From: Prescottella soli
Lineage (GTDB): Bacteria; Actinomycetota; Actinomycetes; Mycobacteriales; Mycobacteriaceae
Length of the DNA: 64,000 nucleotides
Reading direction: 5' to 3'
NCBI RefSeq assembly: GCF_040024445.1
Contig: NZ_CP157276.1
Coordinates: forward strand, 2,976,001-3,040,000
Part shown: one piece after another, positions 15,248 through 18,719 of the stretch
How the letters are laid out: every line of letters begins with the position of its first letter
Numbering within the stretch: position 1 is the first letter of the stretch
Translations under genes and position numbers: made by a program
Notes under the pieces: generated by a model
Seen by the model: only the letters and a program-made list of their open reading frames with translations
Database searches by the model: none
Told to the model about the DNA's origin: nothing

Positions 15248-16432
15248 TCAGCCCGGGAGGCGGACCGGCATCAGCAGGTAGGTGTACTCGCTCTCGGGCG
15301 CCGGGAACGTGCCCGACTCGCCGCGCTCGGGCTCCTCCTCGCCGGCCGGACGCAGCACGGCGGGACGGCTCGGCGTGGTGAAGCCGAACAGCACCCGGTC
15401 CGAGTGCAGCGACGACAGACCGTCGATGAGGTAGCCGGGATTGAACGCGATGATCAGCGGCTCGCCCTGGAAAACGGCCTCGAGGGACTCCTCGGCGCGG
15501 CCGGCGTCGTCGCCACCGGCCGACAGCAGCAGCCCGTCACCGTTGAACTCGAGTCGCACCTGGGCGCCGCGCTCGGCGACCAGGGCCACGCGCTTGATCG
15601 CCTCGACCAGCGGCGCCACCTCGACGGTCGCCATCGCGGTGTGCTCGGCCGGCAGCAGCTGACGGAACTTGGGGAACTCGGCGTCGAGCAGACGCGTCGT
15701 GGTGCGTCGGCCGTCGGCGACGATGCCGAGCATGCCCTCGGTGCCCACCGACGACCCGGCGCCCAGCGCGAGCCCGACGGGGGAAAGCGTGTTGCCACCC
15801 AGCGTTTTCGCGGACTCGGACAGCGTCTTGGCCGGCACCAGCACGGCCGCAGAGGTGTCGCCGGCGGTCGGCATCCACTCGAGCTGACGGACCGCGAGCC
15901 GGAACCGGTCGGTGGCCGCGAGCACGACGTTGGTGCCCTCGATCTCGACACGGATGCCGGTGAGCATGGGGAGGGTGTCGTCCTTGCCGGCCGCGACGGC
16001 GACCTGGCTGACGGCCTCGGAGAACAGGTCCACGGGCAACGAGCCCGTCTGCTGCGGCAGCGCGGGCAGCTGCGGGTAGTCCTCGACCGGCATGGTCGGC
16101 AGCGAGAACTTGGCAGTACCGCACGTGATCAGGACACGGGTGCCGTCGACGGTCACGTCGACGGGCTTGTTGGGCAACGCGCGGGTGATGTCGGCGAGCA
16201 GCTTGCCCGAGACGAGCACCTGACCGGTGGTGGTGACCTCCGCGGAGACGCGGACCTGCGCGGAAACCTCGTAGTCGAAGCCGGAAACGGTCAGGCCCTG
16301 CTCGTCGGCACCGAGCAGCACACCGCCGAGAACCGGCACGGGCGGCCGGGACGGCAGGCTGCGCGCGACCCAGGCCACGGAGTCGGCGAAGTCCTCCCGA
16401 GCAACGCGAAACTTCATGCTTCCAAGCTCCAT
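15248..16432 (-). CDS. dnaN: DNA polymerase III sliding clamp (beta subunit)
   Basis: The 394-residue beta clamp, which encircles DNA and tethers the replicative polymerase. Three repeated clamp domains are evident, beginning [32 protein letters not shown] and ending with the C-terminal [10 protein letters not shown]. The start chosen is the ATG at 16432 (MELGSMKF). An ATG five codons in, preceded by GGAAGC, is an alternative. It is transcribed away from the origin. Confidence 0.96.
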
Positions 16433-16598
16433 CGCTCGGGTGTTCCTCTCGGTAGGCACGGTCGTATCGGCAGCAGCTGCGAACGAAGTCTGCAAAGGCT
16501 GCGCTAGCAGTCTGACACAGCGGCCAGGGGACACCGTATGCGTTCACCGGCCGTGTTGGAAAGCGGACGCCGGCGCCTCGAGACACCTCGAGGCGGGC

Positions 16599-16897
16599 TG
16601 TGAACAGGCGGCTCCCTGCCGGTTGTTCACAGCGCCTGTTTTCAAAGAACTTCTCTCGAGAAGACTTCAATCACAGTAATAGGCACTGTGGAATCTGTGG
16701 ATGGACGCCCGAAGCCGCAGGTCCCACCTACTCGAGGCATGGGGACTTCTCGAGGACGCACTCGAGGACAAACCGGACCAATCTGTGGATACCTCGAGAC
16801 AGTCCCCAGCTGTCCACCGGTTCTGCACCGTTTGTCCACCGGTTGTCCACAACGATTACACACTAGCCGCACGGCGGTATACACACACCTATCCACA
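16599..16897. promoter_or_regulatory. DnaA-box cluster in oriC
   Basis: Candidates against the actinobacterial TTGTCCACA consensus, in both orientations: 16599-16607 (reverse), 16623-16631 TTGTTCACA, 16696-16704 (reverse), 16784-16792 TGTGGATAC (reverse), 16810-16818 CTGTCCACC, 16832-16840 TTGTCCACC, 16843-16851 TTGTCCACA (perfect), 16889-16897 CTATCCACA. The last five are the densest part. Confidence 0.8.
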
Positions 16898-16940
16898 GGT
16901 GTGAGTACTTTTGGATCGTGTCTCGAGTCACCGTGAAACA

Positions 16941-16974
16941 TGACATCCGCACGGAAAGTTCCGTGCGGATGTCA
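16941..16974. repeat. Perfect 16-bp inverted repeat in oriC
   Basis: Arms 16941-16956 (TGACATCCGCACGGAA) and 16959-16974 are exact reverse complements separated by AG. There is no T-tract on either side. It lies between the DnaA boxes and the CTCGAG array. It may terminate dnaA transcription, form a cruciform, or bind a protein. Confidence 0.85.
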
Positions 16975-16998
16975 GTGATCGGGGGCGCCGGCGGGCGC

Positions 16999-17113
16999 CT
17001 CGAGGGTCTAGCTCGAGGCGCCCCGCTCGAGCGCTCCACCTCGAGGACCCAGCTCGAGGGCTTCACCTCGAGGCTCCAGCTCGAGGCTCCAGCTCGAGCG
17101 CTCGCGTCTCGAG
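16999..17113. repeat. Nine-unit CTCGAG array, 13-15 bp period, behind dnaA
   Basis: CTCGAG occurs at 16999, 17012, 17026, 17040, 17053, 17067, 17080, 17093 and 17108, giving steps of 13, 14, 14, 13, 14, 13, 13 and 15 bp. The spacers are partly repeated (CTTCACCTCGAGG, CTCCAGCTCGAGG), giving a degenerate ~27-bp higher repeat. Eight more CTCGAG sites lie at 16577, 16587, 16655, 16731, 16749, 16761, 16793 and 16922. The array ends 13 nt short of the dnaA stop codon. Confidence 0.9.
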
Positions 17114-17126
17114 GCGTGGGCCGGCG

Positions 17127-18719
17127 TCAGCTCTTCGAGCGCTGCTTGATGCGCGCCGTGAGCTCCTGGACCTGGTCGTACACCTTGCGACGCTCGGTCA
17201 TTTCCTTGCGAATCTTCTTGTCCGCGTACATGACCGTGGTGTGGTCCCGACCGAACGTCTGTCCGATCTTGGGCAGCGAGAGGTCGGTGAGTTCGCGGCA
17301 CAGGTACATGGCGATCTGCCGGGCCTGCGCGAGCGGGCGGGCCTTGCCGGGGCCGCACAGGTCGTCGATCGACGTGTTGAAGTACTCGGCGGTGACCGCC
17401 ATGATCGTCGACGCGTTGATCTCGAGTGCCGCCGAATCGGGCATCAGGTCCCGCATCACCACCTCGGCGAGCTTGAGGTCGAGGGCCTGGCGGTTGAGTG
17501 ACGCGAACGCCGTCACCCGGATCAGGGCCCCCTCGAGTTCGCGGATGTTGCGTTCGATGCGGCTGGCGATCAACTCGAGGACGTCGTACGGGACATTCAT
17601 GCGGTCCATCCGCGCCTTCTTCGACAGGATCGCGATGCGCGTCTCGAGTTCGGGCGGCTGGACGTCGGTGATCAGTCCCCACTCGAATCGGGTCCGCAGC
17701 CGATCCTCGAGTGTGGCCAGCTGCTTGGGCGGGCGGTCCGACGACACCACGATCTGCTTGTTCGCGTTGTGCAGGGTGTTGAAGGTGTGGAAGAACTCTT
17801 CCTGGATGCCTTCCTTGCCCTCGATGAACTGGATGTCGTCGACGAGCAGGATGTCTGTCTCGCGGTAGCGGCGCTTGAAGGCGACCTTGCGGTCGTCACG
17901 AAGACTGTTGATGAAGTCGTTCGTGAACTCCTCGGTGGAGACGTACTTCACCCGCATCCCGGGGAACAGGCGCTGCGCGTAATGGCCGGCGGCGTGCAGC
18001 AGATGCGTCTTGCCGAGCCCCGAGGCCCCCCAGATGAACAGCGGGTTGTAGGCCCGGGCGGGCGCCTCGGCGATCGCGACCGCCGCCGCGTGCGCGAACC
18101 GGTTGGACGCACCGATGACGAACGTGTCGAACGTGTACTTCGCGTTCAGGCTGTTGCTGCCCGACGATCCGGTCGTGGGACCAGCGGGCGGCTTGGTGAA
18201 GTACGACGGCCACGACTCGTGGACGCTGGCCAGCGCCTCCCGGTCGTCGTCGACCTCCTCGTGCTCGGCCAGTTCCGGCGCCGCGGCGTCCGTGGTGCCC
18301 ATCGCCAGGTGCCGCCGGCGCACCGTGGCCGCGCTGTCGCCGTACGCGCTGTCGCCGTACGCGCTGTCGCCGAACGCGCTGTCCGCGTAGGCGGTGTCCT
18401 GGAAGACGGGTTCGGCGGGCTCGTCCGGCTCGTCGACGTCCTCCGGTGCGGCGATGCGGACGCCGATGCCCTCGACCTTCTGCCCGAGATGGAGATTGAG
18501 GGCCCGCAGGATCGGTTCCCGCAGGTCGCGTTCGATCGCTTCCTGCGCCAGCGGCGACGGCACCGACAGCAGCGCGAAGCCCTGTGCATAGGTCAGCGGC
18601 CTGACCAGCGCGAGCCATGCCTTCTGTGCCTTGGTCAGGGCCGCGCCGTCGGATGCGGAGGTCAGCTCTGCAACGACGTCGCGCCAGACATTCGCCAAGG
18701 CGTTCGGATCGTCGTTCAC
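17127..18719 (-). CDS. dnaA: Chromosomal replication initiator DnaA
   Basis: A 530-residue AAA+ initiator that binds DnaA boxes and melts oriC. Domain I (1-90) has [11 protein letters not shown]. Domain II (about 91-190) is acidic and contains a tandem [10 protein letters not shown] repeat at residues 113-130, encoded by a 15-bp DNA repeat. Domain III has the Walker A GASGLGKT (231-238), Walker [10 protein letters not shown] and the arginine-finger region. Domain IV ends with the DNA-binding helix-turn-helix [19 protein letters not shown]. The GTG at 18719 has GGGGAGGA upstream; an upstream extension is out of character. The promoter region contains two DnaA boxes, which suggests autoregulation. 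Confidence 0.97.

Follow-up and report, generated by a model that had tools for sequence, protein, structure and literature searches.

Why does the short gap between dnaA and dnaN of Prescottella soli carry so many copies of the palindrome CTCGAG, and what might these do at the origin of replication? The window, i.e. the 64,000 nucleotides of contig NZ_CP157276.1 that were analysed and to which all positions given without a genome or locus label refer, has dnaN at 15248-16432 (minus strand; start at 16417 or 16432) and dnaA at 17127-18695 (minus strand; the stop is at 17127, the start codon is a candidate only and the open frame reaches 18842). The non-coding gap of 709 bp that separates the two genes holds 17 CTCGAG sites (16577-17113). 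We report that this block consists of a conserved eight-site core and a fast-evolving nine-site array, and we discuss a C5 cytosine methyltransferase as the enzyme that would act on both.

As background we sampled 438 kb of this genome away from the origin, made up of 58 kb of the window and 19 further stretches of 20 kb, in which intergenic DNA was delimited by a home-made, simple codon-bias gene caller. This intergenic DNA has 26 CTCGAG in 57.2 kb, i.e. 0.45 per kb, and at most two in any of 230 stretches; the density in the gap is about 50 times that of the sampled intergenic DNA, and 17 sites are present where 0.32 would be expected (Poisson P about 1e-23). The count given in an initial annotation of the locus is thereby confirmed, and ordinary intergenic DNA, with which it had proposed to compare the gap, is not dense in the motif. 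Its remark that CTCGAG is common in coding DNA as Leu-Glu codons also holds: in the 438-kb sample the coding density is 1.1 per kb and 395 of 418 coding occurrences read in frame as Leu-Glu, and the coding excess is therefore ascribed to codon use. Relative to the expectation from shorter words the observed/expected ratio in the genome sample is 0.94, i.e. CTCGAG is not in excess.

A search of the whole chromosome located three CTCGAG at exactly 14-bp spacing in the gap and nowhere else. Pairs separated by 10-15 bp number 52 in the chromosome, and among the 50 listed 10 are in the gap and 36 outside it have the 12- or 15-bp distance that in-frame Leu-Glu codons produce. The remaining four, near 516 kb, 750 kb, 2715 kb and 5117 kb, are spaced differently; three of them look intergenic, and they have no evident theme. 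A regulon of close pairs was considered and rejected on these listed pairs.

The gap was aligned across 14 genomes of the genus (genus code g1), including that of the window. Each of the eight core sites (16577-16927) is preserved in 13 or all 14 of them while most of the DNA in between drifts; the 273 other 6-mers of the core stretch are intact in 5.4 genomes on average, and 7% of them reach 13. In most genus genomes the core spacings are 94, 32, 12, 18, 76, 65-68 and 10 bp, the first of which is 129 bp in the window's genome and its nearest relative, where there is common extra DNA. Other short stretches of the core are conserved too, DnaA boxes among them. That these positions are held constant is indicative of selection at the origin. 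The nine-site array behaves differently: each of its sites is matched in one to six of the 14 aligned genomes, six sites, precisely 15 bp apart and with differing spacers, occupy the corresponding region of the nearest relative (G001), and the other twelve have 0-2 CTCGAG, such that the genus range is 0 to 9 sites. Two units of the window's array are identical (CTCGAGGCTCCAG). In the comparison of close relatives suggested earlier, the core sites are retained. That the nine sites behind dnaA are 13-15 bp apart was correct (15, 13, 13, 14, 13, 14, 14 and 13 bp), and the excess is real; the reading of the block as a single array did not survive, since its two parts evolve differently and only the eight-site part lies among DnaA boxes. 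The regular spacing that had been emphasised is a property of the variable nine-site array, whereas the strongly conserved part is the irregular one.

Read from the dnaN side, core sites 8 (16577-16582) and 7 (16587-16592), 10 bp apart, are both intact in all 14 genus genomes, and site 6 (16655-16660; 13 of 14) falls in the 50-bp bin with the highest AT content of the whole gap (58%). Directly behind it, on the minus strand, is a possible unwinding module (16661-16705) with DnaA-type boxes, a short GC step and then TAT-TAC trios, which would match a known unwinding motif; the assignment is putative and was read from the sequence. Sites 5 (16731-16736), 4 (16749-16754) and 3 (16761-16766, 12 bp from site 4) are intact in 14 of 14. 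The same is true of the CTCGAG of site 2 (16793-16798), which forms a minus-strand composite (16784-16798) with the DnaA box GTATCCACA that follows it directly at 16784-16792. On the plus strand the DnaA boxes TTGTCCACC and TTGTCCACA (16832-16851) have one and zero mismatches to TTRTCCACA, and CTATCCACA (16889-16897) has one. Site 1 (16922-16927) is intact in 13 of 14; directly beside it, at 16928-16939, is TCACCGTGAAAC, which resembles part of a ParB parS site. A hairpin with perfect arms (16942-16973), possibly the dnaA terminator, separates the origin core from the nine-site array (16999-17113), which lies behind the dnaA stop.

Clustering of CTCGAG at this place has been known since 2016. 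According to the available part of Blow et al. 2016 (PMC4752239), conserved CTCGAG clusters occur in non-coding DNA from dnaA to the DNA polymerase III gene in Nocardiaceae and are strongly correlated with an orphan methyltransferase, and a role in replication was suggested there. The window's cluster, with 17 sites in 709 bp against 0.32 expected from background, is a case of these clusters: the hexamer, the place and the tie to a methyltransferase are the same as in that text. The view of the initial annotation that no origin element of this form had been described was consequently wrong. Blow et al. 2016, as far as the available text goes, report motif density and no test of function; relative to that text, the two-part layout, the position-conserved sites, the arrays at 11-15 bp, the register with DnaA boxes, the Vsr neighbour and the companion gene (see below) go further. 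Among the literature matches listed there was no later functional study of CTCGAG in methylation or replication in Rhodococcus or Nocardia.

Arrays are present in other genera as well: G035 has seven sites at 12 bp, G090 has seven at 11-12 bp, and G117 and Rhodococcus tibetensis have six each. Within the arrays of G001 and G035 hexamer and spacing are constant but the spacer sequences are not; G090 and several Nocardia sites have similar spacers as well. The seven-unit array of G090 (locus L117, gap positions 779-934) lies inside the origin core, which in this genome is about 700 bp from dnaA. Per origin, CTCGAG occurs 11 times in Rhodococcus tibetensis and 13 times in another Rhodococcus assembly, eight times each in Nocardia aurea, N. 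macrotermitis and N. nova, six times in N. ignorata, once in Gordonia paraffinivorans and not at all in three Mycobacterium origins. CTCGAG outnumbers the DnaA-box core TCCACA in the window's genus, and is equal to it or less frequent in Nocardia origins. Spacings are mixed, many being 11-12, 22 or 32 bp and hence near whole turns, with 13-15, 15 and 18 bp also present. No palindrome stood out as a substitute for CTCGAG among the commonest hexamers of array-less origins.

The composite at core site 2 has counterparts across the family: CTCGAG directly abuts NNNTCCACA (CTCGAG-NNN-TCCACA) in 33 of 37 array-bearing origins, the exceptions being G026, G031, G056 and G118. TCCACA starts exactly 3 bases past CTCGAG at 52 of 696 half-sites, while each other offset from 0 to 24 occurs at most eight times, and in 15 representatives the arrangement was seen 25 times, whereas random placement gives an expectation of 1.5 and no more than 7 in any of 2000 draws. 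Each of four Nocardia-type representatives carries three or four of these composites. Other offsets are also frequent, namely 25, 26 and 29 in the same orientation (33, 14 and 15 cases) and 17 and 29 in the opposite orientation (31 and 25); many cases, at all the frequent offsets, are inherited copies of one site. Origins of Nocardia and of genus code g22 (L022, L025 and L155) have TGTGGATTC-CTCGAG-GAATCC and the like, with DnaA-box-like halves on both sides.

The candidate enzyme is encoded outside the window. One C5 cytosine methyltransferase orthologue is present in all 14 genus genomes (the G003 copy reads short), in the window's genome at G000:C1:2617834-2618976 (PF00145, E 1.6e-46; TIGR00675 above cut-off), and directly behind it, 17 bases apart, is a Vsr gene (TIGR00632 above cut-off; the pair spans G000:C1:2617834-2619406). 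The pair lies near a Clp-type ATPase gene (locus L197, 1501-3073). Enzyme and Vsr occur together in 14 of 14 genus genomes, and Vsr is near the enzyme in 48 of the 50 loci examined; a PF00145/dcm domain with an adjacent Vsr is the arrangement of Dcm-Vsr, and Vsr repairs deaminated m5C. The adenine-methylase families PF07669, PF01555, PF02384 and PF02086 gave no match in the window's genome, and the first three have matches in some other genus members. CTCGAG is very probably the target of a conserved methylating enzyme, for which this methyltransferase is the probable candidate, and we infer that it is the Nocardia orphan enzyme of Blow et al. 2016.

Across the family sample an orthologue with at least 73% identity is found in 43 of 121 genomes. 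In 18 of the 121 a gene for a 285-aa companion is present, which adjoins the methyltransferase in 18 of 18 (e.g. L319:1501-2358) and sits between it and Vsr wherever Vsr was found. Searches of Pfam, NCBIfam and PADLOC up to an E value of 1 gave no match to the companion, and among solved structures none was convincing (best E 0.15). Distant relatives are found on six plasmid records, and one comes immediately after an N6 methylase, on a plasmid of Cryobacterium, which suggests that the companion is a candidate endonuclease. It is absent from all eight genus genomes searched, that of the window included, and in the remaining six enzyme and Vsr are adjacent. The window's genome has the conserved C5 methyltransferase with Vsr and lacks the companion, the presumed endonuclease that would stand beside the enzyme in a type II restriction-modification system; an unrelated endonuclease may be encoded elsewhere in the genome.

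To score co-occurrence an array was defined as at least four CTCGAG within 400 bp, and the origins of 93 of 127 genomes were scored; six genus members outside the 121-genome sample were entered as enzyme-present from the genus searches. The counts, which are not independent of descent, are 31 with enzyme and array, one with array only, 18 with enzyme only and 43 with neither. The sole array-only genome (G026) is 66% complete, and two of the genomes with neither have homologues with 65% and 48% identity. Genus code g21 agrees in six of six, G090 alone having both enzyme and array, and G033, G058, G074, G103 and G115 having neither. From 31 genomes with both, one with the array only and 18 with the enzyme only, it follows that the array practically needs the enzyme, and not the reverse, although the presence of array and enzyme rests on few independent events. 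The 18 enzyme-only genomes, with enzymes that are 73-80% identical and with 0-4 CTCGAG in the first 600 bp (in G104, 642 bp were readable), speak most strongly against a simple story: the enzyme has an older task, or else these lineages have another way of controlling initiation. A changed target recognition was considered for them and dropped, since the presumed recognition region looks alike by eye. By the rule used, alignment column 299 alone separates the groups, with D in 26 of 31 enzymes from array-bearing genomes and Q or S in all 18 from array-less ones (G125 excluded). With respect to the companion, and leaving out G125, which has a more distant enzyme and no array, enzyme-bearing genomes without it number 27 with and four without an array, and those with it four and 14, respectively. 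On the enzyme tree this amounts to 2-3 independent contrasts, and the link between companion loss and array is therefore not significant and a lead only.

We consider it somewhat better than even, at roughly 55%, that the CTCGAG cluster is a set of methylation sites in the origin whose state gates DnaA, similar to Dam/SeqA. In the window's strain the C5 methyltransferase would methylate a C in CTCGAG, and passage of the fork would leave all 17 sites hemimethylated at once. Until they are re-methylated, loading of DnaA would be altered at the sites adjoining CTCGAG; an effect on DnaA loading is favoured because of the register with the DnaA boxes, by analogy with GATC in E. coli. A reader protein might bind over the hemimethylated sites, in the manner of SeqA in E. 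coli, or DnaA itself might sense the mark at the boxes that touch CTCGAG. Altered loading would then prevent re-initiation within one cycle. In this proposal the eight conserved sites would act as the switch, and the nine-site array would provide more local sites and a longer delay, such that its copy number can drift. A profile search for SRA (PF02182) as a reader domain was silent in 14 genomes, as was its control. Against the proposal, besides the 18 enzyme-only genomes, are the mixed spacings, the other frequent offsets between CTCGAG and DnaA-box cores, and the lack of a mutational signature of methylation in the genome sample, with observed/expected ratios of 1.02 for CTTGAG and 1.03 for TTCGAG. 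Among the three guesses of the initial annotation, control by methylation is the best supported, with 31 of 32 array genomes having the enzyme and with the correlation in the available text of Blow et al. 2016, and sites for a regulator or a nucleoid footprint are less so. A more elaborate version, to which we give distinctly less credence, is an m5C origin clock derived from a restriction system: an ancestral operon of methyltransferase, companion and Vsr would have lost its presumed endonuclease in several lineages, its target would have multiplied at oriC abutting DnaA boxes, m5C would gate DnaA directly and the expandable array would tune the delay.

Against gating by methylation stands foremost a dedicated CTCGAG-binding protein, an origin regulator or nucleoid protein blind to methylation, to which the methyltransferase would be a passenger in the same lineages or a competitor. 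We regard this as a possibility on the doubtful side. It would account for arrays that keep the hexamer only (G001 and G035), spacings of 11-12 bp would suit one small dimer per turn, and the 18 genomes with enzyme and without array are in its favour; yet the array tracks the enzyme in 31 of the 32 array-bearing genomes and inside g21, and the SRA-domain search, whose control was silent, gave no candidate. That the nine-site array is a thing apart from the core, being either an element of the 3' end of dnaA that acts on RNA, by affecting where the transcript ends or how stable it is, or a mere product of slippage, appears unlikely. Its place between the dnaA stop and the hairpin, the range of 0 to 9 sites in the genus and the two identical units are in keeping with it, but slippage alone would not give differing spacers with hexamer and spacing held, as in G001 and G035, and in G090 an array of this kind lies within the origin core, albeit with spacers that are alike.

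The methyltransferase might also be a leftover of restriction, the sites being kept for another, linked reason such as gain of CTCGAG driven by Vsr. The companion adjoins the enzyme in all 18 cases and has a relative placed immediately after an N6 methylase, where a restriction gene would be expected. Still, gain driven by Vsr should act on the whole chromosome, where CTCGAG is at 0.94 in the sample and at 0.45 per kb in other intergenic DNA, and the eight sites that keep their places speak for selection acting on the origin; we therefore consider this quite improbable. Enrichment by Vsr itself was rejected, as the sample has no excess of CTCGAG and no depletion of CTTGAG or TTCGAG. Chance or codon bias, which could draw on the frequency of CTCGAG in coding DNA, is refuted for practical purposes by the intergenic density, the P value in a gap that is non-coding and the conserved positions.

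Several known systems are similar in part. In E. coli, GATC lies inside or over several low-affinity DnaA sites (PMC8488378, available part), and some of the sites are kept in relatives (PMC5145175, available part). As in Dam/GATC/SeqA, to the extent that these texts describe it, a short palindromic methylation site is dense in oriC, touches DnaA sites and is conserved in part. The window's cluster differs in having a 6-bp site, a candidate enzyme for cytosine-5 and not for adenine, and the extra array behind dnaA. At the origin of chromosome 2 of Vibrio cholerae, RctB iterons with GATC are about 11-12 bp apart and have one methylation site each; conservation extends over the entire iteron, to which RctB binds, in contrast to several CTCGAG arrays that keep the hexamer only. 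A TTAA cluster in Arthrobacter and a CTAG cluster in Haloarchaea, described in the available part of PMC4752239, are likewise motifs of orphan methyltransferases at origins, but the motifs and the modified bases (m6A and m4C) are different. CTCGAG as an m5C motif is given for Halorubrum (PMC8112702) and, as a probable one, for Micrococcus luteus (PMC6346199), in the parts of these papers available.

As to what this means for replication in these bacteria, little is known, to our knowledge, about how a second start is blocked in actinobacteria, and we know of no SeqA-like system shown there. If true, an origin mark of m5C rather than m6A would be unusual. Together, the conserved sites, the candidate enzyme and the relatives that have the enzyme only, or neither enzyme nor array, turn the correlation of 2016 into one that can be tested.
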